This document shows positions 5,644-51,392 of a stretch of DNA of 51,918 nt, piece by piece. The translations under genes and the position numbers were made by a program. Each line of letters opens with the position of its first letter. Position 1 is the stretch's first letter. Location of the stretch: positions 1 to 51,918 of the forward strand of contig JAJRTL010000369.1 of NCBI GenBank assembly GCA_024278315.1, written 5' to 3'. The DNA is from Planctomycetota bacterium. Lineage in GTDB: Bacteria; Planctomycetota; UBA1135; GCA-002748355. The notes under the pieces are model-generated. The model did not search any database and had not been told where the DNA came from. It saw only the letters and a program-made list of their open reading frames with translations.

Positions 5644-5660
5644 GGAGACAGGACGATAGC

Positions 5661-7978: not shown

Positions 7979-7981
7979 ACG

Positions 7982-8917: not shown

Positions 8918-9435
8918 TGGACACCCTCACGCTCATGTTCCTCCTGATCGCCACCATCACGATCGCTGGCAGTCTGATCACGCTGTGGAGCAAGTACGTA
9001 GTCCACTCGGTCTTCGGACTCATGTTGGCACTCTTGGGCGTCGCGGGTTTCTACGTCCTCTTGGGAGCAGACTTCCTGGCGGTGACCCAGATCGTCGTCT
9101 ACGTCGGTGGCGTCTTGGTGCTCTATCTCTTCGGCATCATGCTGACGCCGCCCGACCGCGCTGAGCGCAACGTCAAGCTCATCGTCTTCTGCTCACTCCC
9201 CGCCGTTGCCGGTGCCATGTATCTCATCGGATCGGCTCGCGCCATGGAAGGCAAGTGGCTTCCCGGCAAGGAACTCCCGCCGCCACCGGGCAAGCACCTG
9301 ATCCACCAGGTAGGGCACAGCTTCCTCGACAAGGATCAGTATCTGCTGGCCTTCGAGTTGGCCTCCGTCCTCCTCTTGGTCGTTCTCGTCGGAGCGGTCT
9401 ATATCGCGCGCCGTCGATGGGAGGCCTCGGAATGA
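8917..9435 (+). CDS. nuoJ: NADH-quinone oxidoreductase subunit J
   Basis: NuoJ (ND6) is a membrane subunit with a helix that takes part in conformational coupling. Five hydrophobic segments are visible, including the conserved ADFLAVTQIVVYVGGVLVLYLF region (about residues 48-70). 172 aa, typical. Its ATG overlaps the last base of the nuoI stop and GGAGG lies 11 bases upstream, inside nuoI. The stop overlaps the nuoK start (ATGA). Confidence 0.93.
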   Translation: MDTLTLMFLLIATITIAGSLITLWSKYVVHSVFGLMLALLGVAGFYVLLGADFLAVTQIVVYVGGVLVLYLFGIMLTPPDRAERNVKLIVFCSLPAVAGAMYLIGSARAMEGKWLPGKELPPPPGKHLIHQVGHSFLDKDQYLLAFELASVLLLVVLVGAVYIARRRWEASE

Positions 9436-9824
9436 TCGCCCTCACGACACTTCTGGCCCCGTTCACGATGCCATTGACTCCAATCGCGACTCTCCAGGAG
9501 ATTCCGGGCACGACCCTCCCTCTGACCTGGTTCCTGATCATGTCCCTCGTCCTCTTCACGGTGGGCGTACTCACGGTCATCACGCGGAGGAACACCGTCT
9601 ACATCCTCATGGGCGTGGAACTCATGCTCAATGCCGCCAGCCTCAACTTCATCGCCTTCTCCCGGTATCGCGGCGAGGCGGCACTCCTGGATGGCACGGT
9701 GATCTCCACCTTCATCATCGTCCTGGCCGCCGCCGAGGCTGCCGTCGGACTCGCCATCATCCTCAACATCTTTGGACTCTTCGGTTCGATTCGACCCGAA
9801 GATCCCAACCTCATGCGGGAGTAG
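9432..9824 (+). CDS. nuoK: NADH-quinone oxidoreductase subunit K
   Basis: NuoK (ND4L) has three membrane helices; two glutamates important for proton transfer sit in helices 2 and 3. Here they are in LMGVELMLNAASLNF and VLAAAEAAVGLAI. The 130-aa length includes about 28 extra N-terminal residues before the usual PLTWFLIMSLVLF start. The ATG at 9432 overlaps the nuoJ TGA, which supports the longer form, although an internal start cannot be ruled out. Confidence 0.93.
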   Translation: MIALTTLLAPFTMPLTPIATLQEIPGTTLPLTWFLIMSLVLFTVGVLTVITRRNTVYILMGVELMLNAASLNFIAFSRYRGEAALLDGTVISTFIIVLAAAEAAVGLAIILNIFGLFGSIRPEDPNLMRE

Positions 9825-9837
9825 TCAGAAGATCTCG

Positions 9838-12075
9838 ATGCTCTCCTTGCTCGCACAATCCATCACGACCAGTTGGGGTCCCCTGACGCAGGTCCATGTC
9901 CAGATGATGCTCTGGATCATTGCCCTGCCTCTGGCGGCTTTCGGCATCCAGATCTTCTTCAATCGCAAGTTGCCCAGGCAAGGCGATTGGTTGCCCACCT
10001 TGGCCATGGGTGGCTCCCTGGCCCTTTCCCTGCTGCTCTTCCACAAGAGCATCGTCCTGGGGCATAGCCCAGATCTCATGCTGCATTCGGGCAGGGATAT
10101 TCCCCTCGGCCAGACGGGTTGGAGCTGGGACTTTCTCTTCGGGGGAACGGGCGGGTTCGCGACAGAGGGTGGGCGTCAGTCCGACTTCGTCTTCACCCTC
10201 CTCTTCGACAACCTCACCGCGGTCATGCTCTTTGTCGTGACCATGGTGAGTTTTCTCGTGCATGTCTTCAGCACGGGATACATGAAGGGGGAGGAGCGAT
10301 ACGGCCGGTTCTTCGCCTACCTGGCGCTCTTCTCCTTCTCGATGCTGGGGCTCGTACTCAGCGGCAGCCTGCTGATGCTGCTCGTGTTCTGGGAGATCAT
10401 GGGTCTGGCTTCCTATCTCCTGATCGGCTTCTACTTCCAGAAGCCCTCGGCGGCAGCCGCCTGCAAGAAGGCCTTCCTCACGACGCGCGTGGGGGACGTG
10501 GGCATGATCCTCGGGATCATGATCCTCTGGCAGCACTTCGGGACCTTCGACATCCTGCAGATCTTCGAGCTCGCCGCTGTCGAGGTGCAGAACAACGGTG
10601 GGGAGGCACCTGGCTGGATGCTGGCGACGGCGCTCCTGATCTTCCTGGGTCCGGTCGGCAAGTCGGCGCAGTTCCCCCTGCATATCTGGCTCCCCGATGC
10701 GATGGAAGGCCCAACTCCGGTCTCGGCCTTGATCCATGCCGCGACCATGGTTGCCGCCGGTGTCTATCTGATCGCGCGCTTGTTCCCCTTCTATCTCTTC
10801 GTTCCCGAGGCGCTCCTCGTCATCGCCGTGCTGGGCTCCTTCACGGCACTCTTCGCAGCGACCATCGGTTGCACGCAGTGGGACATCAAGAAGGTGCTGG
10901 CTTACTCCACGGTCTCCCAACTGGGATTCATGATGGCAGCCTTGGGCTGCGGCGCCTTGGCTGCCGGCACGATGCACCTCATGACGCACGCCTTCTTCAA
11001 GGGCTGCCTCTTCCTCGGATCGGGATCCGTGATCCTGGGCATGCACCATCGTCAGGACATGCGGGATATGGGAGGTCTGCGCAAGCGCATGCCGCTCACC
11101 TATCTCACGATGCTGATCTCGACCTTGGCGATCTCGGGTGTGCCGCTCTTGGCGGGGTTCTATAGCAAGGATGCGATCATCGCGGCCACTTTGCATCCAG
11201 AGCCGGCCTACGAGGCCATGGGCTACCACGCGGACAGCTTCCTCTGGAAGCTACCGAGCATCATGCTGCCGATCGCGGCACTGCTCACGGCCTTCTACAT
11301 GTTCCGCCTCATCATCCTGACCTTCCACGGCCAGCCCAAGACGGAGCATGCCGAGCATGCGCATGAGTCCCCCTTCAACGTGACCTTGCCGCTGCTGGTC
11401 CTGGCGGCTTTGGCCCTCTGGTCGGCATCACCGTGGATCTTGAATGGGGACTGGCTCGGCGAACACATCTGGTTCAACCAGCTTGTGGCTCCGATGGCGT
11501 ACGAGGGTGGCCGTCTGTCCTTGCAGAGCGACGTGCACCATGTCGACCACGGCTGGACGCCGATCCTCATCAGCCTCTTGGTGGCAGGTGGCGGAATCCT
11601 TCTGGCCTTCATGATCTATCAGTACAAGAAGGTCAAGGCGGAGCGCATCGCCCGTGCGTTCGGACCGGTCTACACGCTGGTCTACAACAAGTACTACATC
11701 GACGAGATCGTGGACCGGTTCCTGATCCGGCCCCTCGTCTATCACTGGAACCTCTGGCTCGCCGTCTTCGACCGCGTCGTCCTCGACGGCATCGTGGATG
11801 GCTCGGCACGCCTGGCCAAGTGGTTCGCTGGCGTCTGCGGCTGGACCGACAAGAACATCGTGGACGGCCTGGCCAACGGACTTGCCTTCTTCACGCAGAT
11901 CTTCGGAGCGGTGGCCCGGATCTTCCAGACCGGCTTCCTCACTCACTATCTCACCAGCATCGCGGTCGCAGCCGTGCTTGGACTGGCACTCTTTGGTGGA
12001 AACATGCAGTGGATCCTCTTGGGTCTGCTGCCCCTGACTTTCTTTGGCTTCGTTGTCCTCGCCCGTCGGGCTTGA
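9838..12075 (+). CDS. nuoL: NADH-quinone oxidoreductase subunit L
   Basis: NuoL (ND5) is the distal antiporter-like proton-pumping subunit and carries the lateral amphipathic helix at its C terminus. The diagnostic core FPLHIWLPDAMEGPTPVSA is followed by LIHAATMVAAGVYLIAR, with KVLAYSTVSQLGFMM further on. At 745 aa it is longer than the roughly 613 aa of E. coli; extra residues lie in the loop around residues 85-120 and in the C-terminal half. The ATG at 9838 is 13 bp after the nuoK stop. Confidence 0.96.
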   Translation: MLSLLAQSITTSWGPLTQVHVQMMLWIIALPLAAFGIQIFFNRKLPRQGDWLPTLAMGGSLALSLLLFHKSIVLGHSPDLMLHSGRDIPLGQTGWSWDFLFGGTGGFATEGGRQSDFVFTLLFDNLTAVMLFVVTMVSFLVHVFSTGYMKGEERYGRFFAYLALFSFSMLGLVLSGSLLMLLVFWEIMGLASYLLIGFYFQKPSAAAACKKAFLTTRVGDVGMILGIMILWQHFGTFDILQIFELAAVEVQNNGGEAPGWMLATALLIFLGPVGKSAQFPLHIWLPDAMEGPTPVSALIHAATMVAAGVYLIARLFPFYLFVPEALLVIAVLGSFTALFAATIGCTQWDIKKVLAYSTVSQLGFMMAALGCGALAAGTMHLMTHAFFKGCLFLGSGSVILGMHHRQDMRDMGGLRKRMPLTYLTMLISTLAISGVPLLAGFYSKDAIIAATLHPEPAYEAMGYHADSFLWKLPSIMLPIAALLTAFYMFRLIILTFHGQPKTEHAEHAHESPFNVTLPLLVLAALALWSASPWILNGDWLGEHIWFNQLVAPMAYEGGRLSLQSDVHHVDHGWTPILISLLVAGGGILLAFMIYQYKKVKAERIARAFGPVYTLVYNKYYIDEIVDRFLIRPLVYHWNLWLAVFDRVVLDGIVDGSARLAKWFAGVCGWTDKNIVDGLANGLAFFTQIFGAVARIFQTGFLTHYLTSIAVAAVLGLALFGGNMQWILLGLLPLTFFGFVVLARRA

Positions 12076-12096
12076 TCGCTCCGGGGAGACCTCTCA

Positions 12097-13692
12097 ATGC
12101 TCGCGAACATCCTACAAGCCGTTCAAGGATCCCTACCGGGTCCCTTGAGCCTCCTTACTTTCGCCCCGCTGCTCGGGATGCTTGTCATCCTGTTCCTGCC
12201 CAAGGCGAAGACCGAGGCCATCAAGACCGTGGCTGCCTGCGCGACTTTCATCCCGCTGGCAATCTCGATCTATCTCTACTGGGCCTACGATCGTGGTTCG
12301 ATCGGCATGACTGCCGGCAACATGATGTGGACCGAGCAGGTCAGTTGGATCAAAGCCTTCAACGTCGAGTACTTCGTCGGCGTGGACGGACTCTCGGTGC
12401 CGATCCTTCTGCTCTCGACCCTGCTCTTCTTCATCGCCGTCTTCTCCAGCTGGAACATCAACAAGGGTGTGAAGGGTTACTTCGCCTTGCTGATGCTGCT
12501 CGAGGTCGGAACCAACGGCTGCTTCGTGGCCCTGGACTTCTTCCTCTTCTATGTCTTCTGGGAAGTCATGCTCCTGCCGATGTATTTCCTCATCGGCATC
12601 TGGGGTGGTGCTCGACGCGAATACGCGGCCATCAAGTTCTTCCTCTACACTTTCTTTGGTGGTGTGCTGATGCTCATCGCCCTCGTCGCCATCTACATGG
12701 CCTCGGGATCCGGAGATGCCGAGCCGACCTTCAACCTGCTGAAGCTCGCCGAGATGGCCAAGGATCCCAACAGTCCATTGCTCTTGGGTGGTCTCGACCT
12801 CTTTGGCTGGAAGTTCCTCTCCTGGACCTTCTGGTTCCTCTTCATCGGATTCGCGGTCAAGGTGCCGATCGTCCCGCTGCACACCTGGTTGCCGGACGCG
12901 CACGTCGAGGCGCCTACGCCGATCTCGGTCATCTTGGCCGGCATCCTGCTGAAGCTCGGCGGCTACGGTATGTTGCGCGTCAACTTCCAGCTGGGTGGTT
13001 CGATGATGCAGGAGGAGACGACGATCATCATCATCGGTGGCATCGGTGTGGTGAGTATCCTCTACGGAGCCTTCGTCGCGATGGCCCAGACCGACTTCAA
13101 GAAGTTGGTGGCCTACAGCTCGGTCTCACACATGGGATTCGTGCTGCTCGGCGTTGCGGCCCTCAACAAGGAGGGCATGAATGGTGCTGCGGTGCAGATG
13201 TTCACGCACGGCTTGTCGAGCGCCCTGATGTTCCTCGTGGTCGGCGTGATCTACGACCGTGCCCATCACAGGGACATGAACCGCATGGGGGGGATTGGAC
13301 TCCTGATGCCACGCTATACCGGCTGGGCCATGATCGGAGTCTTTGCTTCCCTTGGGTTGCCGGGCCTCGCTGGGTTCATCGGCGAGATCCTGGTTCTGAT
13401 CGGCGCCTTCAACTCGACGGCCAGCACGTCCATGCAGATCTACGCGGTCCTCGCGGCCTGTGGTCTGGTGATCACGGCGGGCTACCTGCTATGGACCGTC
13501 CAGCGTGTCTTCATGGGGCCGGTCACGGACGAGAGCTTCAAGGAGTTCCCCGACCTCACCCCACGCGAGACCTTCACGCAGGTGCCTTTCGCCATCCTCT
13601 GCATCATCATCGGCGTGTTGCCCTTCCTGCTGCTGAACGTCTTCGACGGCTCGCTGGCGCATCTCCTCACGCTCATCAACCCTGCCAACTAG
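12097..13692 (+). CDS. nuoM: NADH-quinone oxidoreductase subunit M
   Basis: NuoM (ND4) is the middle antiporter-like proton-pumping subunit. The sequence VPLHTWLPDAHVEAPTPISV and the following LAGILLKLGGYGMLR are family hallmarks, as is FKKLVAYSSVSHMGFVLLG. 531 aa with about 14 membrane segments, close to the usual length. GGGGAG lies 12 bases before the ATG. The gene starts 21 bp after nuoL and ends 1 bp before nuoN. Confidence 0.97.
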   Translation: MLANILQAVQGSLPGPLSLLTFAPLLGMLVILFLPKAKTEAIKTVAACATFIPLAISIYLYWAYDRGSIGMTAGNMMWTEQVSWIKAFNVEYFVGVDGLSVPILLLSTLLFFIAVFSSWNINKGVKGYFALLMLLEVGTNGCFVALDFFLFYVFWEVMLLPMYFLIGIWGGARREYAAIKFFLYTFFGGVLMLIALVAIYMASGSGDAEPTFNLLKLAEMAKDPNSPLLLGGLDLFGWKFLSWTFWFLFIGFAVKVPIVPLHTWLPDAHVEAPTPISVILAGILLKLGGYGMLRVNFQLGGSMMQEETTIIIIGGIGVVSILYGAFVAMAQTDFKKLVAYSSVSHMGFVLLGVAALNKEGMNGAAVQMFTHGLSSALMFLVVGVIYDRAHHRDMNRMGGIGLLMPRYTGWAMIGVFASLGLPGLAGFIGEILVLIGAFNSTASTSMQIYAVLAACGLVITAGYLLWTVQRVFMGPVTDESFKEFPDLTPRETFTQVPFAILCIIIGVLPFLLLNVFDGSLAHLLTLINPAN

Positions 13693-13693
13693 A

Positions 13694-15439
13694 ATGGCCG
13701 ACTACTTCAGAGACCTGATTGCCATAGGACCGGAGCTAATCCTCTGTGGGACGCTCCTGGTCGTGCTCCTGGTGGATCTGTGGCGTGCGGGTCGTGACCG
13801 TGCGAGCGTCTGGTGGATCGCGCTGATCGTGACCTTCGTGTCCTGCCTGGCCATGGTCCAGATCGGGAGTCTCTACCATCAGGCCGAGGCCAAGGTCGAT
13901 GGCATGGCCTTGTTGCCCGAGTTCTTGGCGCTGGCGTCGGTCTACACCCTGGTCACGGTCTGCGAGAGTTACTACCGCGGGCGGGATGATTGGCTGCTCG
14001 GAACGATCGTGCTGATAGGCACGGCCCTGGCCGGTTATCGGCTCTGGGACCTGGGTGTGGATGTCTTCTCCGGGCTCGATCAGGAGACTGCCTACTGGGG
14101 AGCATTGATAGAGGGGGATGGGCTGGCCATCTTCCTGCGTGCCCTCGGACTCTTCACGCTCTTCTTCTGCGCTCTCTTCGCGATCTTCTACAAGCCCTTC
14201 CTGAAGGGTATCAATCGCAACGGCGTGATGGAGTGGCTGCTCTGCCTGATCGGCGCGACGCTGGGGGGCATGTTCCTCGTCCAGACGACGAATCTGCTCT
14301 TCCTGTTCCTGGCACTCGAGATGATGTCCCTCTGCTCCTACCTGCAAGCGGGCATGCTCAAGGGGGATCGTCGGTCGGCCGAGGCTGGCCTCAAGTACGT
14401 GCTCTACGGGTCGATGGCTTCGGCCTTCATGCTCTTTGGATTCTCCCTGCTCTATGCCTTCACCGGAGAACTCAACTTCCCCGCGATCCGTGAAATCCTC
14501 ATCGGCCTCTCTGCCGATGGCGCCATCGGTGATGCCGAAGGCCTCCTGCTCTGGGTCGCCATCCTCGGCAGCCTCACGGGTTTCGCCTACAAGATCTCGG
14601 CCGTCCCCTTCCACTTCTGGACGCCCGATGTCTACGAAGGCTCGCCGACGCCCACGACCGCCTTCCTGGCCGCTGGCAGCAAGGCATTCTCCTTCGGGAT
14701 CCTGATCCGCTTCGTCGTCCTCCTGGGTGATGTGGGCTATGGCGCACGCATCCTCGAGCTCCTGGCCTGGGTGGCAGCCCTGACCATGACCTACGGCAAC
14801 CTCGCGGCTCTGCGCCAGAGCAACCTCAAGCGGCTCTTCGCCTACTCCTCGATTGCTCATGCGGGCTACATGCTCATGGGCATCGTGGCGCTCTTCGTCA
14901 TCACCAAGGACACCACGAGTGGTCAGCTGACCGCTGGCTCTTTGAACGTCGATGGTGCCAAGGCCGTCCTCTTCTACCTGTTGGCCTACGCCATCATGAA
15001 TCTGGGGGCTTTCGGCGTCCTGATCTTCCTGGCCAACCGCACCGGGTCCGAGGAGATCGCGGACATCCACGGCATGGGTTGGAAGGCGCCGATGGTCGGT
15101 GGAACGATGATCGTCTTCCTGCTGTCCCTGACCGGAGTGCCTCCGACAGCCGGCTTCTTCGGCAAGTACTACCTCTTCGTCGCAGCGATCCAGAGTGGCT
15201 ATGGTTGGTTGGTCGTGGTCGCGGGACTCAACACCGTGATCTCGTTGGTCTACTACTTCCGCATCGCCAAGGCCCTGTTCCTGCGCGGAGAAGAAGAGGC
15301 CTTCGTGGAGATCCAGGGAGGCAAGGTCTTCTCCCTCGCGCTCCTCTTCCTGGCGCTGCTCACGATCTACTTCGGCATCTTCGCCGGCGGAGCCACCGAG
15401 CTCCTCCAAGAAGTTGGCACCTCCCTCCAGTCCCGCTAG
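13694..15439 (+). CDS. nuoN: NADH-quinone oxidoreductase subunit N
   Basis: NuoN (ND2) is the antiporter-like subunit nearest the quinone arm. SAVPFHFWTPDVYEGSPTPT followed by AFLAAGSKAFSFG, NLKRLFAYSSIAHAGYML and SLTGVPPTAGFFGKYYLF are diagnostic. At 581 aa it is longer than the usual 480-500 aa; part of the excess is in N-terminal loops and in the segment around ELNFPAIREILIGLSADG. It is the last gene of the operon. No nuoE, nuoF or nuoG occurs before or after it in the window. Confidence 0.96.
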   Translation: MADYFRDLIAIGPELILCGTLLVVLLVDLWRAGRDRASVWWIALIVTFVSCLAMVQIGSLYHQAEAKVDGMALLPEFLALASVYTLVTVCESYYRGRDDWLLGTIVLIGTALAGYRLWDLGVDVFSGLDQETAYWGALIEGDGLAIFLRALGLFTLFFCALFAIFYKPFLKGINRNGVMEWLLCLIGATLGGMFLVQTTNLLFLFLALEMMSLCSYLQAGMLKGDRRSAEAGLKYVLYGSMASAFMLFGFSLLYAFTGELNFPAIREILIGLSADGAIGDAEGLLLWVAILGSLTGFAYKISAVPFHFWTPDVYEGSPTPTTAFLAAGSKAFSFGILIRFVVLLGDVGYGARILELLAWVAALTMTYGNLAALRQSNLKRLFAYSSIAHAGYMLMGIVALFVITKDTTSGQLTAGSLNVDGAKAVLFYLLAYAIMNLGAFGVLIFLANRTGSEEIADIHGMGWKAPMVGGTMIVFLLSLTGVPPTAGFFGKYYLFVAAIQSGYGWLVVVAGLNTVISLVYYFRIAKALFLRGEEEAFVEIQGGKVFSLALLFLALLTIYFGIFAGGATELLQEVGTSLQSR

Positions 15440-19141: not shown

Positions 19142-21211
19142 CTAGAAGGTCTGGCCGATGGTCAGATGGAAGACCCACGCATCTTCGCCGGGGAGACGAT
19201 CGGGGTTGAAGCCGGCGTCCAGGCGGATGGGCACACCAGGAAAGTTGATGATGAGCCCAGGGCCGATGCCATACCGCATCCGGCTGAGCCCGAAGTCGTT
19301 CACGTTCGTACCCACGTTGCCTGCGTCTGCGAACAAGGCGAGCTGGAATGGCTCGAGGAGGGCTACCTGCAACTCGGCCTTCCATACGGTGCGGTAGAGC
19401 CCACCAGTCGGGTTGCCCTCCGGGCCCTTGGGGCCCAGATCGTCCTGCGTGAAGGAGCGGACCGTGTTGGGTCCACCATTGAAGAAACGTTCCGAGATGG
19501 CAACGGTCGGTGCCCCGTTTCCTGGCCAGAGTGCTCCGATCTCGCTGGCCAGGATCAAGCGGGCCTGCCTGGAAAAGGGGATGTAGTAGCTACCGCTGAG
19601 GATGATGCGGTTGAAGTCCTGCGAGCCTCCCAGCGCTGTGCTAGAGAAGTCGCCACGCGCAAACGCCCTCCAACCATCCGTGGGAAAGAGCAGGTTGTTC
19701 CTCTCATCCCGAAGGAGCTCCAGGAAGACGGTGCCCTTGTTGGGTGTCAGGACCTCACCGGGGAGCGTCGCGCCTTGCTTGGTGACCAACTTGTTCTGAT
19801 GCTTGAACAGGTAGCCGAGACGCGACTTGTAGTCGGTGAAGATATACTTGGTTCCTGCGATGTCTGTCTCGAATGCTCGCTCGGTATACGATGGTCGATC
19901 GTTGAGGAAGTACCTCGCACTGACAACCATATCGATTCCAGTGGATGCGAAGTCCTTGTCGATCAGAGCCGTCGAGCCTTCATAGCCCTTTGTCGAGACC
20001 AGAGCGTGGGCATTGAATCCCAACCCTGTGCCGAAGAGGTTGCGTTCACGGAACTGGACCCCTCCCCTCAGCTTCTCCCAGGAGCCCCATCCGATCATGA
20101 AGTTGAGCGCGCGGTTGTTGAACTCCTTGACCTTGATCGTGATGCGGAGGGTCCTGTCGTCCAACTCCTCGTGGATGAACTCGACCTTCTCGAAGACTCC
20201 CGTGCGATAGAGCCGGTTGATGGCTGCGTCCTCGACCGATCCCTTGTAGAAGTCCCCGATCTTCGCTCGGTACTTGTTCAAGATCATCTGATCGCGGGTT
20301 ACTTCGTTGCCGCTCAGAAGGATCTCACCGATCCGGACTTTGTGCCCCGCCTTCACCAGAAGCTTGAACCAGGCCTGCCCGTTCTCCTTCTTGGTCAGGA
20401 GCGGGCGGGCCATTGCTGGCGCATGGTAACCGAGATCACGGAGGCGGTTTCGCAGGTCCAAGGTCCATTCCATGAAGAAGGTCGAGGTCGCGGGTTCTCC
20501 TGCAGGGACCTTCGGGAGGAAGCCAGCGAGGATCCTCCTGATCTCGGGCGGGATCTGGATCTCGGCGATCGTGTAGAGCTCTCCCTCCAGAACCTCGATC
20601 CTGATCTTGGCCTGCTTGTCGCCCTTGGCCCTCTCGATGTGCGTCTCGGGGAGGGTGACATCCAAGTAGCCCTTGGAGCGATAGAAGGCTCGAATATCCC
20701 TGTAGAAGGCCCGGATCTCACTTGCCACGAACCAGGGGTCGCCTGTGCCCAGGAAGCCGGCGTGGCTCCTGCGCCAGAGTTCGAGTAGCTCCTCCTGCTT
20801 GAAGCCTCTGTTGCCCGTGATCTGGACATCGGTCACCTGGACCCGAGGCCCCTCATGGATCAAGAACCGGACGAGGATGGGTTGCCTGTCATCCTCCGGG
20901 CGCTCGACCTTGAAGCCTACCTTGGCGTCCGGAAAACCCATGGACCAGTAGTAGTCCTCGAGTTCGGCCGCGGCATCCTGGATGGGCGTCTCCTTGCTGG
21001 GGTCCTTGGAGAAGTAGTCCTCGATCAGATACCGGATCTTGCGGTTGAGGATGTACGCCGAGGCCGAATCGTTTCCCTCGTGCTTCACCTGGATGATACG
21101 CGCAGGATTGCCATCATCGTCCTCGCCCTGGAACTCACCTGAGAAGGTGGCGCAGGAGGAGAATGCGCAGAGCATCAGGGTCAACCAGATCGAAGAGAGA
21201 TATCGGCTCAT
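19142..21211 (-). CDS. tamA: TamA-like Omp85 outer-membrane assembly protein
   Basis: Omp85 proteins insert outer-membrane proteins; TamA works with TamB in the translocation and assembly module. A signal sequence ends AFSSCATF, where C20 is a possible lipobox cysteine. POTRA-type repeats fill about residues 65-350, e.g. VTDVQITGNRGFKQEELLEL and IGEILLSGNEVTRDQMIL. The C-terminal 16-strand barrel (about 370-689) includes GGPNTVRSFTQDDLGP, corresponding to the conserved VRGF-type loop, with FVRS-like RSF instead of RGF. The last residue is Phe, the usual outer-membrane signal. It lies downstream of tamB on the same strand. 689 aa. Confidence 0.88.
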   Translation of the reverse strand: MSRYLSSIWLTLMLCAFSSCATFSGEFQGEDDDGNPARIIQVKHEGNDSASAYILNRKIRYLIEDYFSKDPSKETPIQDAAAELEDYYWSMGFPDAKVGFKVERPEDDRQPILVRFLIHEGPRVQVTDVQITGNRGFKQEELLELWRRSHAGFLGTGDPWFVASEIRAFYRDIRAFYRSKGYLDVTLPETHIERAKGDKQAKIRIEVLEGELYTIAEIQIPPEIRRILAGFLPKVPAGEPATSTFFMEWTLDLRNRLRDLGYHAPAMARPLLTKKENGQAWFKLLVKAGHKVRIGEILLSGNEVTRDQMILNKYRAKIGDFYKGSVEDAAINRLYRTGVFEKVEFIHEELDDRTLRITIKVKEFNNRALNFMIGWGSWEKLRGGVQFRERNLFGTGLGFNAHALVSTKGYEGSTALIDKDFASTGIDMVVSARYFLNDRPSYTERAFETDIAGTKYIFTDYKSRLGYLFKHQNKLVTKQGATLPGEVLTPNKGTVFLELLRDERNNLLFPTDGWRAFARGDFSSTALGGSQDFNRIILSGSYYIPFSRQARLILASEIGALWPGNGAPTVAISERFFNGGPNTVRSFTQDDLGPKGPEGNPTGGLYRTVWKAELQVALLEPFQLALFADAGNVGTNVNDFGLSRMRYGIGPGLIINFPGVPIRLDAGFNPDRLPGEDAWVFHLTIGQTF

Positions 21212-21300
21212 TCAGGAAAGACGCAAAGGCTGACAGCTGGTGATTCTGGATCGGGATCGTGGCACGGCAGCCGTCCTGGTGGAGAATCCGGTAGAGGACC

Positions 21301-21335
21301 TCACCAGGAACCGGGAAGCACCCGAGTTCCGGTGA
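21301..21335 (-). terminator. Candidate hairpin between tamB and tamA
   Basis: TCACC and GGAA (21301-21310, with one unpaired A) pair with TTCC and GGTGA (21327-21335). It lies 75 bases downstream of tamB within the 198-bp tamB-tamA gap. It may attenuate transcription into tamA; no T run is visible. Confidence 0.3.
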
Positions 21336-21409
21336 GCTGTGCGGTAATGTATTTTGCCTGACCCTCGCGGCAATTCAGTATCTCGTTCCACATTCTGATC
21401 TCTCTGCCT

Positions 21410-24400
21410 TCAGAAGTTGATGCGGAACACGAGGCCAAGATTGAAGAAGCCGTCGGCGTCCCTCTCGACCTGCACGAACCACTGCCGGTCGAGCTTGTAT
21501 TCGACGCGCATGCTCTCGATGCCACTGGTTCCGAAGTCCTGGCCGGACTCGACACTGAAGCGATCGAAGAAACTCTCCCCAGAGTCACTCGTGCTGCCGG
21601 TGTCGACGAGCCAGCTCCAAAGCTCGTTGGCGCCATAGGAGCCTGCGGCCAGCATCATGGATTCCATGGCGCGCCCCTCCAGGTCCCTGGGCAATTGACC
21701 GGTGCTCAAGAACACGAGGATCTGTTCGTATTCGAGATGAGGAGAGGAAGTCAGCAAGAGTGCGGGTTTGTCGTAGCTCCCCTGCACCCGCATGCGGATC
21801 TCATGCCCTTTGCGGCGGTAGACTGCATTGATGTCCAGTTCGGGGAAGAGCGGCCGGTCCTTCTTGAAGAAGATGAGCGCCTGCTCGAGCCTCAGTTTGG
21901 CGGAAGGCATGCGTATCCATCCGCGTAGTGCCGTTACGGCCCCGACCAGATAGGGATGAGAGCCTGGGCCCTGGAGGCGCAACTGGGCATTCACATCGGC
22001 ATCCACGAGGCCGGTTCGGATGAGGAAGGGGTTCACCGTCGTGAGTTTCACATCGAAGGTGACCCGCTTGCCGAGCTCTCCCTCGAGCTCGAAGGGAACG
22101 AAACCGGGGACCGAGGCTCCACCCTTGCGGGAAGGGTCGATCATCAAAAGGCTCTGCCTCTCGTTGTACTTGCCCGATTCGAATGCTACCTCGCCTCCAA
22201 CCTTGATCTTGCGTGGTGTGCCTGTCAGCAAGAGATGCGTGTTGCCCAGGAGGCGCAAGCCTCGTGAGCGCACCAGCATGAGATCCTTGCCTTGCAGCTC
22301 GAGACGAAGCTCTGCTTGATCGAAGTCCTCCCAGAGCAATCCCTGGGTTTCTAGCCCACCCTTGACCGTGAAGTCGCCGACGCCGATCTTCCCCTTCATC
22401 TGCTTGACCTGCACATGCTGTGGCAGGACTTCGATCTGCCCGTCCAGCGATTCGATGCGCGGAGCGCCACGGACCTTCAGGCCGACTTTCTCCAGTCGCA
22501 GATCCAGCCGGGGCTCCGGCTTTGCGAGGCTCCCTCCCAAGATCAGCTCACCGTCCAGGATTCCGGTCAGGTCCAGGTCCTTCATCCAGATGCGCGGGAG
22601 CTTTCCGATGTCGAGCCGGTTGAGAGTGAGTTTGCCCGCGAGCTTTACCTTGTCCTTCCCGATCCGTCCCCGGAGAAGATCTTGCACCGGGAAGTTGGCT
22701 CGCAGTTCTCCTTGGACCGACCCATCCGGTCCTTCGATCTCCAAGGGGCCGAGCGCGATACCTTTCGTATCCAGGTTGATGCTTCCCTTCATGCTCGCCG
22801 CTAGTGCGACATCGTGCTTCCACTGGAAGTCTGCTCGGAAGAGATCCACAGGGAGGTCCTTGGCCAAGCCCGCCGTGCCGAACGGAAGGCTGCCGCTTCC
22901 ATCGAGCCTGAGCATCTCCGACCCTTCTCCGCTCGTGAGATGCAGGCGTTCGACATGGATACGAAAGGGCGTCGCGTCGAGCTTGCATCGGAACTTGAGG
23001 GGTAGTTGTGGAAGATGTCGGATCTGCTCATCGCTCAACGCCAGCAGGAGGGTGGCCGAGTGTTGGAGGAGGTACCCTCCGGTGTCGATGCTGAAGCTCG
23101 GAGATTCGAAGGGGCCACGGATCTTCGCCGAGAGATCCAGACGACTCCGCGGAAGGGACAGGGAGAGGAAGGGGCCTACGAAATCGAGCGCGAGGTTCTC
23201 TGCTTCGACGCCGAGGTTCCAATCGGTACCCTTCCCCAGTGGGATGCTGCCGCTCGCCTTCAACCGGACGTTTCCTTGCTCCGTCGCGGGCTGACCCTCC
23301 TTGCGTGGCTCACTCTCCGGCTGGACCACGAACTCGCTGATGTGGAGTTCCTCTCCACCTCGCCATTCGATGCGGCTATCCAGCCGCCCGATGACCCTCC
23401 CATCGCTCGTAATTCCGGCCATGGAGAGCCTGCCATCCAATCCGGGCTTCTCTCCAATGATGAAGCGGGTTTCTGTGACCAGCTCCCTGCAGATCACATG
23501 CCTGGGCAGGATGGGCAGGAGTTTCAGTGCTTCCAGGGTCCGTGAATCGAGGGTGCCTTGGACCTTGAAGCTGCCTTGCTGACGAGCCGCGTCGAGTTCG
23601 AAGTTGCCTACGAGCTGCATCTCGGGCGCTTCGGTGACCTTGAGGGTCATCTCTTCCAGCGTGTGTTTGTTCGCGGCCGATCGTGCTCTGCCGGTCACAT
23701 GGACGAGCGCGCCGCTGGCCTGGGCACGTGCGTCGAGAAGCCCATCGAAGACCGGTTGCTCGATGCTGCCTGTCCATCGGCCTTCGAACTTGCCCAGCAG
23801 GCTCACTCGTCCCATGGGAGCGACATCGAGATCGAAGCCCTCTGTGACCTCGATGTGGCCTTGCAGCTCTCCATCCCGCCTTCGGTAGTCGCCCAGGACG
23901 GGGAGTTTGCCCTTGTCGACATGGACCGAAAAGCCTCTGCCTTTCAGATTCGCCTGGGACAGGAGGAGCTTGCCTTGCGCCAGTTCTCCTTCCAGCTCAC
24001 CTTGGATAGGGAGGCGTCTGCGGATGATCTCCGGGAGGAGCGAACGATACGGTTCGAGGTCCTGGATCTTGATGCCTAGGCTTCCTTGCCATCGACCTGG
24101 ATCGAGTGCGCTGTTCCAGTCGCGGTGCGGCAAGAGCAGATCCTTGGCCAGGATCTGGAGCCCGGGTAGCTCGACCTGTAGCTTGGGCACCCGCACCTGA
24201 TGGTCGCGGAGCTGGAAGCTCAGCACGGTGTTCTCGAGTTTGCTTCCTTCGTACCGCATGCCCTGGATGCGTAGGTTTCCATCGGCGAGGCCTGCGGTGT
24301 CGAACCCGGCGTGGAAGTCGACCTTGCCGCCGTCGATGGGCAGTTGGATTCCCAGGTCCCTCAGGAACTCACCGAAGCTGGCCAGCTTCCCTTCCGCCGT

Positions 24401-25057
24401 GAAGGCCCAAGAGTCCTGGGTGGTGTGTTGGATCTCCAGGGACAGGTCCATTTCTGGACCCTGGATCGTCACGGATCGTTGGCGGATGCTGGCTCCCTCC
24501 ACAGATTCCTGGCTGAGGGCTGCCACGTCCAGGCGGGTCTTGCCGCGGCGGCTCCCGAAGACCAGCTCCTCGATCTCGATCAGGACTCCATCGGGAAAGA
24601 GCGAGATGATCTGGGGCAGTATCTCGTTGGCCTCGATCTTCACATCGTTCTCTTTCTGCTGCCCGGCCCCGGTCGTCGCCGCCAGTTCCATGCCTTGGGC
24701 ACGGATCTCCAGGGATCGCAGCGCGCCGAGTGCTCCATGGGGCAGTTGCAGGGGTTCGAGCCAGAGAGTCACCGTGGCATCGGTGATGTTGCGGATGGGG
24801 CCTTCGGCGTTCGAGAAGGAGACTCCTCTGAGTTCGAACGTGGACCACCAGTCGCCTTCGATGGCCTCGGCTTCGACTGGCACTCCCAGTTGGTTCGACA
24901 TCTCTGAACGGACGAGAGAAAGAACCATGCCCGAGAAGAGAGGCTTGCGGAACAGGAAGGCCAGGGTCAGGAGGAAAACGAGGCCCAGTGCCAGGATCAG
25001 GACTCGGCGGACCCATCGCCGACGCGCTTTGGGGGGCGAGGATGGCCCACGCTTCAC
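21410..25057 (-). CDS. tamB: TamB-like (DUF490/AsmA-type) envelope bridging protein
   Basis: TamB-type proteins are anchored in the inner membrane and form a long hydrophobic beta groove across the periplasm, supporting outer-membrane protein insertion and lipid movement. A single N-terminal anchor lies at about residues 18-40, after Arg/Lys-rich residues. The long middle is repetitive beta structure with many short strands of the DLxLxxxxxxx type. The C-terminal TamB/DUF490 domain (about 880-1215) includes PHLEYEQILVFLSTGQLP and ends MRVEYKLDRQWFVQVERDADGFFNLGLVFRINF. The start is GTG at 25057, overlapping the TGA of the upstream cca-like gene. 1215 aa, normal for the family. Confidence 0.9.
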   Translation of the reverse strand: MKRGPSSPPKARRRWVRRVLILALGLVFLLTLAFLFRKPLFSGMVLSLVRSEMSNQLGVPVEAEAIEGDWWSTFELRGVSFSNAEGPIRNITDATVTLWLEPLQLPHGALGALRSLEIRAQGMELAATTGAGQQKENDVKIEANEILPQIISLFPDGVLIEIEELVFGSRRGKTRLDVAALSQESVEGASIRQRSVTIQGPEMDLSLEIQHTTQDSWAFTAEGKLASFGEFLRDLGIQLPIDGGKVDFHAGFDTAGLADGNLRIQGMRYEGSKLENTVLSFQLRDHQVRVPKLQVELPGLQILAKDLLLPHRDWNSALDPGRWQGSLGIKIQDLEPYRSLLPEIIRRRLPIQGELEGELAQGKLLLSQANLKGRGFSVHVDKGKLPVLGDYRRRDGELQGHIEVTEGFDLDVAPMGRVSLLGKFEGRWTGSIEQPVFDGLLDARAQASGALVHVTGRARSAANKHTLEEMTLKVTEAPEMQLVGNFELDAARQQGSFKVQGTLDSRTLEALKLLPILPRHVICRELVTETRFIIGEKPGLDGRLSMAGITSDGRVIGRLDSRIEWRGGEELHISEFVVQPESEPRKEGQPATEQGNVRLKASGSIPLGKGTDWNLGVEAENLALDFVGPFLSLSLPRSRLDLSAKIRGPFESPSFSIDTGGYLLQHSATLLLALSDEQIRHLPQLPLKFRCKLDATPFRIHVERLHLTSGEGSEMLRLDGSGSLPFGTAGLAKDLPVDLFRADFQWKHDVALAASMKGSINLDTKGIALGPLEIEGPDGSVQGELRANFPVQDLLRGRIGKDKVKLAGKLTLNRLDIGKLPRIWMKDLDLTGILDGELILGGSLAKPEPRLDLRLEKVGLKVRGAPRIESLDGQIEVLPQHVQVKQMKGKIGVGDFTVKGGLETQGLLWEDFDQAELRLELQGKDLMLVRSRGLRLLGNTHLLLTGTPRKIKVGGEVAFESGKYNERQSLLMIDPSRKGGASVPGFVPFELEGELGKRVTFDVKLTTVNPFLIRTGLVDADVNAQLRLQGPGSHPYLVGAVTALRGWIRMPSAKLRLEQALIFFKKDRPLFPELDINAVYRRKGHEIRMRVQGSYDKPALLLTSSPHLEYEQILVFLSTGQLPRDLEGRAMESMMLAAGSYGANELWSWLVDTGSTSDSGESFFDRFSVESGQDFGTSGIESMRVEYKLDRQWFVQVERDADGFFNLGLVFRINF

Positions 25058-32758: not shown

Positions 32759-34747
32759 TCAGGGTTGGATCTGGTATTTGTCGAGCTTGCGTTGGAGGGC
32801 GAAGCGGGAGATGCCCAGTAGGTCCGAGGCCTTGGACTTGTTGCCGTGAGCGCGCACCAGGGCCCTGCGGATCTCGCTCTCCTCGAGTTGGGCGACGATG
32901 TCCGTCAGCGTTGTGCCGGACTCGGAGGGGAGGGGTGAGCTGGCGTCGCGGCTCAGGCTCGGGTTCTGGACCTGCTCGGAGAGGTGCTCGGGGAGGAGGA
33001 CTCCCTCCGAGAGGAGCAGGCCGCGTCGGATCTCGTTCTCCAGTTCGCGGATGTTGCCCGGCCAGTCGTAGCTGCTCAGGAAGTCCAGCGTCTTGGAGTC
33101 GATCTTGGACAAGGGCTTGCCGGCTTCGAGGCAGGCCTTGCCGAGGATGTGGGAAACCAGCAGTGGGATATCGCCCTTGCGGGCACGCAGGGGGGGGAGA
33201 TTGATCGGAAGGACGTGAAGTCTGTAGAAGAGGTCTTCGCGGAAGCTCTCCTCCTTGACCATCTTGCCCAGGTCCCGGTGTGTGGCCGTGACCAGCCTGA
33301 TCTCGATGGGAACGGTCCGGCTGGATCCCAATGGCCGCACCTCCTTTTCCTGGATGACGCGGAGGAGCTTGCTCTGGAGATCGGCCGACATCTCGCCGAT
33401 CTCATCCAAGAACATCGTTCCGCCCTTGGCCTGCTCGAAGAGTCCCTTGTGATTCTTGTTGGCGCCGGTGAAAGCACCGCGGTCGTATCCGAAGAGCTCG
33501 CTCTCCAAGAGGCTCTCGGGGATGGCGGCGCAGTTCTCGGAGATGAATGGGCCCTCTCGGCGTGGCCCTTGTTCGTGCAGGGCGCGTGCGATCAGCTCCT
33601 TGCCGGTGCCCGATTCGCCCAGGATCATGACGGGATCCGAGGCCTCGACGTAGCGGTCCAGGAGGCGGAAGACCTCCTGCATGGCCGGGCTCTCGCCGAC
33701 GATCTTGCGGTAGTCATGGCGCAGTCCCAAGGCCTTGCGCGACGCGGCCAGCTCCTCTTTGACCTCCTTGAGCTCCTCGACCTGTTTCTTGACCTTGCCT
33801 TCGAGGCGGGAGTTCAGCTCTGCTACACGGTCATGGGCTTCGAGCAGCGCCTCGTTCTTGGAAGTCAGATCGGCAACCAGTCGCGCATTGCGGATGGCGA
33901 CGCCCGAGATGTCGGCCAGCACATTGAGCAGCGACAGGTCCTTCTCGGTGAAGGCATGTTGCTGGAGGCGGTTGTCCAGGTAGAGGGCGCCCTCGATCGT
34001 GCCGCGCACGCGCAGCGGGGCGCAGAGCACCGAACGGAGGCGCAGGTCTTCGACGCTCTTCAGGGCTTTGAAACGCTCATCGGCCTGCGCGTTGACCGTG
34101 AGCCGGACTTCGCCCGATTCCAGGACCTCGTCCACGATGGTGCGGCTCAATGAGGTCTCGGGACTCTCGAGGCTCTCGCCCACGAAGTTGCGCGCCACCG
34201 GAATCGTCATCTCCTCTGCCTTGCCGAGCACGAGGAAGCCACGCTCGGCTTCGGTCGTGCGGATGGCGGCATCCACGATGAGGTTGAGCAAGCGCTCCTG
34301 GTCCAGCTCTTCGTTGAGCGCCTGGATCAGCCGCGCGAAGGTGCCCATCGAGAGCGGTCCTCCTTGGTGCGCCGTCTCCTCGGTGGCACGCGACTTCTCT
34401 TCACCCTCGGGGGCGATGGGCTCGACCGAGATCTCGCAGGGACCGATCTTGACGATCTCCCCGGGATGGATCTCGAAGAGCGACCCGCTTTCCACGCGGT
34501 TCCCACCGAGCAGCGTGCCGTTCTGGCTGCCCTCATCCCTGACCATGAAGCTCTGTCCCTTGCGCATGAAGGTCAGGTGGTGCCGCGAGATGGCCCGTTC
34601 GGAGAGGGGCACATCCCGGTCACGGCTCCGGCCGATCGTGATGGGACTCTTGCTGAAGCGATGCGTCGTCCGCTGCCCGTTCTGGAGAACGTGCAGATGG
34701 AAGGGGGCGCAGGACTCGGTGCGGTTCTTGGCCATGGTCTCGTTCAT
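32759..34747 (-). CDS. Sigma54-dependent enhancer-binding activator with FHA and GAF sensors
   Basis: These activators use ATP hydrolysis to open promoter complexes of sigma54 RNA polymerase. An FHA domain (about residues 25-100, with IGRSRDRDVPLSERAISRHH) reads phosphothreonine. A GAF domain (about 135-300, including VLCAPLRVRGTIEGALYLD) senses a ligand, followed by a coiled coil (about 300-335). The AAA+ core contains the Walker A GESGTGKE, GAFTGA for sigma54 contact, and the Walker B FLDEIGEM. A Fis-type HTH lies at the C terminus (about 615-662). The FHA input implies control by a Ser/Thr kinase. 662 aa. Its targets are unknown; an alternative start lies 12 bases downstream. Confidence 0.93.
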   Translation of the reverse strand: MNETMAKNRTESCAPFHLHVLQNGQRTTHRFSKSPITIGRSRDRDVPLSERAISRHHLTFMRKGQSFMVRDEGSQNGTLLGGNRVESGSLFEIHPGEIVKIGPCEISVEPIAPEGEEKSRATEETAHQGGPLSMGTFARLIQALNEELDQERLLNLIVDAAIRTTEAERGFLVLGKAEEMTIPVARNFVGESLESPETSLSRTIVDEVLESGEVRLTVNAQADERFKALKSVEDLRLRSVLCAPLRVRGTIEGALYLDNRLQQHAFTEKDLSLLNVLADISGVAIRNARLVADLTSKNEALLEAHDRVAELNSRLEGKVKKQVEELKEVKEELAASRKALGLRHDYRKIVGESPAMQEVFRLLDRYVEASDPVMILGESGTGKELIARALHEQGPRREGPFISENCAAIPESLLESELFGYDRGAFTGANKNHKGLFEQAKGGTMFLDEIGEMSADLQSKLLRVIQEKEVRPLGSSRTVPIEIRLVTATHRDLGKMVKEESFREDLFYRLHVLPINLPPLRARKGDIPLLVSHILGKACLEAGKPLSKIDSKTLDFLSSYDWPGNIRELENEIRRGLLLSEGVLLPEHLSEQVQNPSLSRDASSPLPSESGTTLTDIVAQLEESEIRRALVRAHGNKSKASDLLGISRFALQRKLDKYQIQP

Positions 34748-34848: not shown

Positions 34849-36114
34849 ATGCAAGCCGGCGATCAGCCCAGTAGCTCGATGCCCGGGGCCTGGAAGCCTC
34901 GCATCCGCGTCCTGGAGACCCAGGTGGTCCAGGATCCAGGCTCTGAAGGGCTTCTCCTCCTGGATCCCGAGGGGCTTTTCGAGGATCCGGTCTTCGTGCC
35001 TCAGGGGCTCCTCCCTGTGGTCGCGAGCTTCACCGGAGAGCAGGACCTTGCCCAGATTTCCGTCCGGCTCGGGAAGCAATTCGGTCAGGAGGTCCCCTTG
35101 GACTTCCTCCAACAGGTCGCCACCGATCTCGAGGCGCGCCTCTGCATCGAAGGTGAGACCGTCGAAGCGGCGCGGAAGCAGAAGCTCGCGGAATTCGAGG
35201 CCCTCGAGGCCCGTCCGGCCATCCACTCCGGATCCAATGGCTATCCAGAAGAGCCCAAGGCCTGCCGTGAGGCCCTGGATGTCTTGCTCGGCGCGCCGAG
35301 ATCTCCCCGAAACGGCGTCCCACTGCTCGGCCTCGTGGCTCCACACATCGACATCGAGAGGGGGTGTGAGGGCTACCGCGAGGCCTACAGCAGCCTCCGT
35401 CAACATCCACCCTCCGACCTCTACGTCCTCTTTGGCACGAGCCACAATGGCGGACGCACCAGCCTGATCCCCTTTCGCAAGCCTTTCGAGACCCCGCTGG
35501 GGAGGGTCCCGACCGACCGTGGATTCCTCGAGGACTTCCTGCGCGAGCTGGGTCCCGAGGGCGGCCTGCAATCGAGTCTCGACGAGGAGATCCTGCATCT
35601 CCGGGAGCATTCCCTGGAGTTCCAGGTTCTGTTCCTCAAGAAGGTGCTCGGTGACCATCCCTTCCAGATCGTGCCCCTCTTGACCGGAGTGCTGCCGGAC
35701 GATCCGGCCAGCGATCCGGCCATCACGCGCCAACTCGAGGTCCTCGAGAAGCTCTCTCGCGCCTACGCGGGTCGCGTCAGCTTCGTGGCTGGTGCCGACA
35801 TGTCCCATCTGGGTCCCTGGTTCGGGGACCCAGACCCTGTGGACGCTGAGCTGCTCGGTAACCTCGAATCCTTGGATCGTGGCAGTCTTGACTTCCTTCT
35901 CCAGGGTCGCGCAGCAGAGTTCCATGTCCACGTGCAGGCAGAGGACAACCCGCGGCGGATCTGCGGTGCAGCACCGATGTTCTATGTTGCGGAACTCTCT
36001 CGACGCATGGACCCTGCTTGCCAAATCGAGCTGCTGCACTATGGCCAGGCGGTGGCCGAAGACGGAAGCCAGGTGGTAAGTCACGCGTCCTTGCTCCTGC
36101 ATGGCAGGGACTGA
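34849..36114 (+). CDS. MEMO-family protein (AmmeMemoRadiSam system protein B type)
   Basis: MEMO proteins have the fold of class III extradiol dioxygenases and bind iron or copper through conserved His residues. Segments visible are LVAPHIDIERG, FGTSHNGG, LREHSLEFQVLFLKKV and AGADMSHLGPWFGD, which carry the expected His/Asp/Cys-type metal-site positions. The MEMO core spans about residues 150-421. The first 140 residues are an extra domain with VFVPQGLLPVVASFTGEQDL and a helical part (winged-helix-like), not present in human MEMO1. The usual partners, AMMECR1 and a radical SAM enzyme, are absent nearby. The 3' end overlaps the GT4 gene by 14 bases. 421 aa. Confidence 0.85.
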   Translation: MQAGDQPSSSMPGAWKPRIRVLETQVVQDPGSEGLLLLDPEGLFEDPVFVPQGLLPVVASFTGEQDLAQISVRLGKQFGQEVPLDFLQQVATDLEARLCIEGETVEAARKQKLAEFEALEARPAIHSGSNGYPEEPKACREALDVLLGAPRSPRNGVPLLGLVAPHIDIERGCEGYREAYSSLRQHPPSDLYVLFGTSHNGGRTSLIPFRKPFETPLGRVPTDRGFLEDFLRELGPEGGLQSSLDEEILHLREHSLEFQVLFLKKVLGDHPFQIVPLLTGVLPDDPASDPAITRQLEVLEKLSRAYAGRVSFVAGADMSHLGPWFGDPDPVDAELLGNLESLDRGSLDFLLQGRAAEFHVHVQAEDNPRRICGAAPMFYVAELSRRMDPACQIELLHYGQAVAEDGSQVVSHASLLLHGRD

Positions 36115-37270
36115 AGTGGCTGGCCCTCTGATTCTCGCTCTGGATGTCTGGGATCCGAAGCGCGGCGGCCTTGAGGTCTATGCCGATCATCTCGCTCGCG
36201 GATTGGCTGCGCGCGGCTTTGAGCCCCGTCTTCTCCTGGGCGAGGCACGGGCTACGCCGGATCAGCCGCATGAGATTCTGGGTGGTCGTGGCCCTGATTT
36301 CTATCGGCGCTTGGACGACCGGGTGGACGAGCGGGGCCGTGACCCTTCGGATGGTGCCCCTCTGCTCTCCTTCCGGCATCCTGGCCGGCGCTGCCGTGTC
36401 TTCTTGCCGCTCGGGGGGCTCCTTGCCTCCTCCTTGGCCGCGCGCCGCGCCGCCGAGCCCGCTCCGCTGGCGCTGCCGCGCCGCCTGGTTCGCTCCCTGT
36501 CGCCCAAGACGCACTTCTATACCGCAAGAGAACGCGAGTTCTTTTGCGACGACGATCCCGAACGTCTCGTGTTGGTGGCCTCCCAGCTCATCCAGGAGGA
36601 TATTCGTGCGCGTTTTCGGGACTTCGCAGGCAAGATCCAGATCACGGGCCTTCCGATCCAGGAGGATCGCTTCCTGCCTGCCGGGCCCGATCTACGCATG
36701 CGTTTGCGCGAGGAGAAGCTCGGTAGTGCGCAGGCCGGTCCCGTGCTCCTGTGGATCGGCAACGACGCCAGGCGCAAGGGGCTGTCCATGGCGCGCAAGG
36801 TTCTCGCGCGTCTTCGTCTTCGCAGGCTCGACGCTCACCTCATCCTCGCTGGCCATCGCACGGAGGGCTGGGACGGCAAGGATATGGGTTTGCACGGATG
36901 GGGGCATGTCGATCCGGCCCCCCTCTACTCGATGGCCGATCTCCTTATCGCTCCGAGCCTCGAGGACGGCTTCCACCTTGCGATGGTCGAAGCCCTTGCT
37001 GCTGGCTTGCCCGTTGTCTGCTCGGGTCGCGTCGGGGCATCCATGCTGGTCCAGGATCGGGATCTCGCACGCGTCGTGCAGGACCCACGGGACCTGGACG
37101 GATTCGACCGAGATGTGCTCGCGCTCTGCGCCCGTGGCTCTCTCTCGTTCGAGAGGATGGAGGCTCGTCGCGCCATGGTCGAGACCAGTTTTCTCGATCG
37201 CCATCTCGATCACCTGGCGCATCTTCTTATCGATCACCTTCCCTCTCTCCAGAACGCGAGTCGCGGATGA
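36101..37270 (+). CDS. GT4-family glycosyltransferase
   Basis: Family 4 enzymes transfer sugars from nucleotide sugars with retention, using a GT-B fold. The N-terminal acceptor half starts LILALDVWDPKRGGLEVYADHLARGL, the typical GGxE-type start. The donor half includes LLWIGNDARRKGLSMA (about 208-223) and the PSLEDGFHLAMVEALAAGLPVV motif (about 285-306), where the E7E catalytic pattern appears as E-D-G-F-H-L-A-M-V-E. It resembles LPS-core WaaG-like enzymes, but sugar and acceptor are unknown. 389 aa. The ATG at 36101 lies inside the MEMO gene and the stop overlaps eboE (ATGA). Confidence 0.88.
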   Translation: MAGTEVAGPLILALDVWDPKRGGLEVYADHLARGLAARGFEPRLLLGEARATPDQPHEILGGRGPDFYRRLDDRVDERGRDPSDGAPLLSFRHPGRRCRVFLPLGGLLASSLAARRAAEPAPLALPRRLVRSLSPKTHFYTAREREFFCDDDPERLVLVASQLIQEDIRARFRDFAGKIQITGLPIQEDRFLPAGPDLRMRLREEKLGSAQAGPVLLWIGNDARRKGLSMARKVLARLRLRRLDAHLILAGHRTEGWDGKDMGLHGWGHVDPAPLYSMADLLIAPSLEDGFHLAMVEALAAGLPVVCSGRVGASMLVQDRDLARVVQDPRDLDGFDRDVLALCARGSLSFERMEARRAMVETSFLDRHLDHLAHLLIDHLPSLQNASRG

Positions 37271-38433
37271 AGCCGAGCGATCTCCAGGCCGAGGGCGTTG
37301 CCCCTCTGAGCTACTGCACCAACGTGCATCCTGCTCAGACCCTGACCGATGCGGAGCGGGTCTACCGCGAGATCAGTGCTCCCTTGTTGCGTCGCTGCCT
37401 GGGCTCGGGGGATCTCCTGCTGGGAGCCTGGTGGCCGCGGGACCTCGTCCGGGCTTTCATCGAAGATCCGGCGCGTCTGCAGAGGCACGGGGATTTGTGT
37501 GAAGAGCTCGCACTGCGTCCCTTCTCCCTCAACCTCTTTCCGATGGGGCGCTTTCACGGTGGTGATTCACAGGCGGCCGTCAAGGAGGCGGTCTACCAGC
37601 CCGACTGGTCCAGCGACGAGCGCCTCTCCTACACTCTGGATGCCGCGCGCAGCCTTGCCGAGCTCTGTTCTCGTTTCTCGACGCCTCTGGGCGTAATGAG
37701 CACCTTGCCACTCGGTTTCCGCGGAAGGGATCGTTCGCTCCGCACGGCACCCGTTCACACTCGCAATCTCTTCCGTGCCGCGCAGGTCCTGGCCCAGATC
37801 GAGGAAGACACCGGTGTGCGTCTGGAGCTGGCCTTGGAGCCCGAGCCTTGGTGTCTGCTCGAGAGCGTGGGGGAGAGCCTGACCTGGCTTGAGGATGAAC
37901 TGGCAGCACTCGCTGCGTCGCAGGGCTCTGAGGCTCTGGTCCGCCGACACATCGGGATCTGTCTGGATCTCTGCCATGCGGCCGTGATGGGGGAGGACGC
38001 GGTCGAGGCCCACAGGGCCATCGAGGGGCGAGGATGGCGCGTCAGCAAGGTCCAGCTGAGCTCCTGCCTCCGCGCTCGCGGACCGGATGGCCTGGCCAGG
38101 CTCCTCACACGGGACGAGCCCGTCTATCTGCACCAGTGCCGTCTGGCCGGTGCGTCTCCCCGGCACTTCGTCGACCTCTCGGATCCCGGTCTGGCCGCAC
38201 TCGACATGGAATCCGATGACCTCGTCTATTCGCACTTCCACGTGCCGCTCCACGATCCGGGCCAAGAGCCACTGACCACCACGCAGGATCTCCTCTGCGA
38301 CTACCTCGCTTTTCTGCGCGGCGGTGGCTTACGTCCCGGCACTCCGATCGAAGTTGAGACCTACACCAATCCCGCGATCGAAGAAGAGCTAGAGTTTGCT
38401 GTCAGCCAGATCTTGGCGAGTCCACCCCTATGA
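37267..38433 (+). CDS. eboE: EboE-like metabolite traffic TIM-barrel protein
   Basis: EboE belongs to the eboABCEF cluster, which is known to help move metabolites such as scytonemin precursors to the periplasm. The protein has the fold of xylose isomerase-like sugar-phosphate isomerases. Recognisable stretches: LSYCTNVHPAQT (about 13-24), KEAVYQPDWSSDERLSYT (about 105-122), MSTLPLGFR (about 145-153), LALEPEPWCLLE (about 198-209) and HIGICLDLCHAAV (about 237-249). The Cys, His, Glu and Asp residues there suit a metal site. The ATG overlaps the stop of the GT4 gene. No other ebo genes are in the window. 388 aa. Confidence 0.8.
   Translation: MKPSDLQAEGVAPLSYCTNVHPAQTLTDAERVYREISAPLLRRCLGSGDLLLGAWWPRDLVRAFIEDPARLQRHGDLCEELALRPFSLNLFPMGRFHGGDSQAAVKEAVYQPDWSSDERLSYTLDAARSLAELCSRFSTPLGVMSTLPLGFRGRDRSLRTAPVHTRNLFRAAQVLAQIEEDTGVRLELALEPEPWCLLESVGESLTWLEDELAALAASQGSEALVRRHIGICLDLCHAAVMGEDAVEAHRAIEGRGWRVSKVQLSSCLRARGPDGLARLLTRDEPVYLHQCRLAGASPRHFVDLSDPGLAALDMESDDLVYSHFHVPLHDPGQEPLTTTQDLLCDYLAFLRGGGLRPGTPIEVETYTNPAIEEELEFAVSQILASPPL

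Positions 38434-49793: not shown

Positions 49794-51392
<1,599 letters not shown>

Follow-up and report, generated by a model that had tools for sequence, protein, structure and literature searches.

A gene for a MEMO-family metalloprotein and a gene for a GT4 glycosyltransferase form a conserved, translationally coupled pair specific to one family of uncultured Planctomycetota. Sequence comparison shows the pair to be a genuine unit, and its substrate is wholly inferred. The anatomy is reasonably likely to be that of a two-gene operon facing a sigma54-type activator, with the EboE gene that follows it being incidental. The MEMO family is conserved all the way from bacteria to humans, and a MEMO protein locked to one glycosyltransferase offers a concrete partner and a testable type of reaction. 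The window (the whole stretch of DNA analysed, 51,918 nucleotides) comes from a draft genome that is 85% complete (G000); among named relatives, MAGs of Planctomycetota come nearest to it. Comparisons were made with a family sample of eight genomes (G000-G007) and an order sample of up to 151 genomes.

The sequence-only reading had described three genes overlapping by 14 and 4 bases; their positions and overlaps were confirmed, and all three are on the plus strand (see table). Since orthologs of MEMO, GT4 and EboE are present in every genome of the family (n=8), the three are not chance open reading frames. The MEMO protein matches PF01875 with 107 bits against a cut-off of 27 (aa 126-415). 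The GT4 protein matches Glyco_trans_1_4 with 64 bits against a cut-off of 27, with further matches to GT4-conflict and Glycos_transf_1, and EboE matches TIM_EboE/NF035939 with 266.5 bits against a cut-off of 250. Most relatives of the MEMO gene use a start that corresponds to an ATG at 34879, and this later codon may be its true start. Elsewhere in the window are a D12-class adenine DNA methyltransferase (PF02086; 31675-32739, plus strand) near the activator, genes for Complex I subunits (49 kDa, NADHdh and two antiporter-like subunits; 5490-15439, plus strand), and an Omp85/POTRA protein beside a TamB-like protein (19142-25057, minus strand), an envelope-assembly pair.

Table. Features of the MEMO-GT4 locus and the adjoining EboE gene (positions in the window).
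Feature	Position	Strand	Length or extent	Remarks
Sigma54-type activator, FHA-GAF-AAA-Fis	32759-34747	-		GAFTGA motif present; divergent from MEMO
MEMO-family metalloprotein	34849-36114	+	421 aa	PF01875
N-terminal PqqD-like domain of MEMO	34897-35148	+	~aa 17-100	Three strands followed by three helices
MEMO domain	35224-36093	+		H166, H199 and C372 aligned with MEMO1 ligands
GT4 glycosyltransferase, WaaG-like	36101-37270	+	389 aa	14-base overlap with MEMO
EboE, xylose-isomerase-like TIM barrel	37267-38433	+	388 aa	4-base overlap with GT4 (ATGA)

MEMO and GT4 are adjacent on one strand in all eight family genomes, and the order of activator, MEMO and GT4 is the same in each. The two reading frames overlap in seven of the eight, mostly by ATGA or GTGA: six times by 4 bp (the G004 overlap was read from the sequence by eye) and by 14 bp in the window, while a 17-bp gap separates them in G002. 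A GT4 profile scores the family orthologs at 527-560 bits, and no match in the 143 remaining genomes of the order exceeds 171 bits; by this measure no other family of the order has the GT4 ortholog. A literature search found no paper joining MEMO to a glycosyltransferase. The claim that the three genes have no established common pathway thus stands for MEMO and GT4, but not its counting of EboE as a third member.

The activator faces MEMO across about 100 bases and is divergent from it in 8/8 family genomes, at about 67-71% identity. MEMO-facing activators also occur in other planctomycete families (f2, f6, f7 and f8), where no GT4 adjoins MEMO, and in those families the activator often has a serine/threonine kinase behind it (confirmed by Pfam at one locus, read by eye at the rest). 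No convincing -24/-12 sigma54 promoter was found upstream of MEMO in 13 genomes. A further ORF in the window (49794-51392, minus strand) matches the relatives' MEMO-facing activator genes at 30-38% identity and is probably a second sigma54-type activator.

The structure model of the MEMO protein (mean pLDDT 95) has iron-bound human MEMO1 (7kq8) as its best PDB match, and in that alignment H166, H199 and C372 fall on the MEMO1 iron ligands H49, H81 and C244 (PMC11081632). The two histidines are kept in all 71 aligned relatives and the cysteine in 69. The metal site, with all three MEMO1 ligands, is kept, and metal binding is predicted. Ahead of this site lies an N-terminal domain which the structure model folds as three strands followed by three helices. 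The sequence-only reading called this domain unusual; instead it is the rule for a long class of MEMO, being present in 71/71 relatives. The domain is termed PqqD-like here. Pfam PqqD matches eight of the 71 (best E 4e-6), and the window protein itself falls below the threshold.

At E 1e-25, long MEMO proteins turn up in 27 of the 151 genomes searched from the order. An alignment query retrieved 416 relatives from a public genome collection, where a single-sequence query gave none, and the best 80 of the 416 include Myxococcales, Rokubacteria, Omnitrophota and Acidobacteria. The gene contexts in other phyla are varied and lack GT4; recurrent neighbours there, noted by eye at loci L144-L204, are a YkgJ-like cysteine-cluster protein and an M20-like peptidase. 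Among 80 loci compared, a GT4 adjoins long MEMO in this family only, and the idea that long MEMO generally goes with glycosyltransferases was therefore rejected. A GT9 heptosyltransferase stands beside long MEMO at a few planctomycete loci only.

The best solved relative of the GT4 protein is WaaG/RfaG (E 2.4e-22, profile positions 19-344 on chain positions 15-343), the alpha-1,3-glucosyltransferase of the LPS core. The GT4 catalytic motifs are kept, except that D289 replaces the first Glu of the EX7E motif; E288 lies just before it and E297 is kept. Genes for PMT-type membrane glycosyltransferases are found near MEMO-GT4 in G002 and G004, with a similar protein seen by eye in G006; they agree with an envelope role and prove nothing. 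The GPMC system (NF038229/NF038230) was considered and rejected, as GT4 scores 14.9 bits against 400 and the regulator 135 against 1200, far below the cut-offs. Three genomes from a different phylum have high-scoring GPMC GT4 loci, and near these tblastn found homologs of none of the four window genes (MEMO, GT4, EboE and activator).

A function combining redox chemistry with envelope glycosylation is the best, though tentative, suggestion for the MEMO-GT4 pair, and we regard it as rather doubtful. The FHA-GAF activator would respond to a signal, and MEMO and GT4 would be made together. The PqqD-like domain might then dock a peptide or a partner protein, the metal site would carry out a redox step on the substrate held by that domain, and GT4 would transfer a hexose onto an envelope acceptor, LPS-core-like or of another kind. 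In its specific form, with the PqqD-domain MEMO oxidising a peptide- or lipid-bound substrate, the WaaG-like GT4 glycosylating the product and the sigma54-type activator as the switch, the scheme would be a family-specific system and is unlikely. If true, it would give a MEMO protein its first defined biochemical partner and pathway outside AmmeMemoRadiSam.

Alternatively, the pair could be an ordinary glycan-synthesis operon, and MEMO, itself non-catalytic, would regulate the transferase merely as a sensor or buffer of iron, copper or redox state. MEMO1 binds Fe and Cu, has no known dioxygenase activity and is stated to be of unknown primary molecular function (PMC11081632), and the GT4-free contexts of long MEMO in other phyla also favour a sensor. 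However, many active-site residues are strictly conserved among the 71 aligned relatives, which fits catalysis equally well, and we think a sensory role improbable. It is far less probable still that the window MEMO is an AmmeMemoRadiSam component with its partners encoded elsewhere, even though it scores 85 bits with TIGR04336 against a cut-off of 26. AMMECR1 is found in exactly five of 13 genomes, the same five in which there is a short MEMO lacking the N-terminal domain, and is absent from G000 and the seven others with only long MEMO. Because AMMECR1 tracks the short form, long MEMO belongs to a different class. Open frames of short MEMO span 292-374 aa, except in G010, where MEMO and AMMECR1 matches lie within one 516-aa open frame (C385, L101), which suggests a fusion. 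The partners reported missing from the window MEMO were indeed not found: AMMECR1 (PF01871) was not detected in the 85%-complete genome, and no radical SAM gene adjoins MEMO, the scanned neighbours being the activator, the D12 methylase, GT4, EboE and proteins with no Pfam match. The absence of AMMECR1 is explained by its association with the different, short MEMO.

The sequence-only reading proposed that MEMO, GT4 and EboE jointly make or export a glycosylated metabolite. EboE does lie behind MEMO-GT4 on the same strand and within 5 kb in six of the eight family genomes, spanning several genera, so that a functional link is conceivable and speaks against a strictly two-gene reading; the direct overlap with GT4 in the window and the role of ebo genes in export of scytonemin intermediates, perhaps with handling of sugars (PMC6282210), point the same way. 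But in four of those six genomes (G001, G002, G005 and G007) GT4 and EboE are separated by an opposite-strand gene whose product looks secreted and is about 750-790 aa long, and in G004 and G006 EboE is on a different contig while MEMO-GT4 is intact. Moreover, EboE is present in 61/61 genomes of the order examined, nearly all of which lack the GT4 ortholog, and its neighbours differ by family. The three-gene system is therefore poorly supported and seems quite improbable. The triple does recur within 5 kb in relatives, though not as one transcription unit; the conserved, translationally coupled unit is MEMO and GT4.

GT4 is directly next to EboE only in G000 and G003. These are also the only family genomes missing the EboE-side copy of the secreted-protein gene, both keeping just a distant paralog, and the gene is still beside EboE in G004 and G006. 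For this reason the coupling of GT4 to EboE in the window is probably derived, EboE having presumably become translationally coupled after loss of the intervening gene, with the polarity of the change inferred; strictly, it is still conceivable that some lineage never had that gene. An AU test did not reject G000 and G003 as sisters (p 0.315), so one loss and two losses are indistinguishable. The secreted-looking family is divergent from EboE in six of eight family genomes and reaches three copies per genome (for example L032:10372-12729 and L033:7109-9406, and paralogs); the one member scanned has no Pfam match. An apparent operon seen in one genome can thus include a gene brought in by the loss of an intervening one.

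The structure model of EboE is a xylose-isomerase-like barrel resembling sugar epimerases and isomerases such as IolI, and it has acidic and histidine residues that are invariant in an alignment of relatives. EboE is probably a gene apart, a sugar-isomerase-like orphan found throughout the order that has long been a neighbour by position and is incidental here. In this order it may have a core role independent of the ebo pathway. The lack of other ebo genes noted at first was borne out, as none of EboA-D or EboF is among the EboE neighbours scanned in the window. It is explained by the ebo genes being unclustered in the three Planctomycetes examined by Yurchenko and colleagues (PMC5133447). 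EboA was not found in the 85%-complete G000, and an EboC search there gave only UbiA-type matches below the cut-off. Six of 14 tested genomes of the order have EboA. In G001, G003 and G005 its contig is not that of EboE, and in G024, a genome of two contigs, about 98 kb separate the two genes.

Parts of the locus resemble known systems. The window MEMO shares its fold and His/His/Cys metal site with human MEMO1 (PF01875), but carries the extra PqqD-like domain and sits in a bacterial operon with GT4. That domain has the strand and helix order of PqqD and the RiPP recognition element, and some of its relatives match the Pfam family, but here it is fused to MEMO and falls below the profile threshold. 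The protein scores above the family cut-off for AmmeMemoRadiSam, whereas the window genome yielded no AMMECR1, no radical SAM gene is adjacent, and AMMECR1 in relatives goes with short MEMO. EboE is by score a true member of the ebo cluster families (EboA-F), yet stands without the other ebo genes, as is known for Planctomycetes. The GT4 protein aligns nearly end to end with WaaG/RfaG, but is paired with MEMO outside any LPS operon and has Asp at the first Glu of EX7E.
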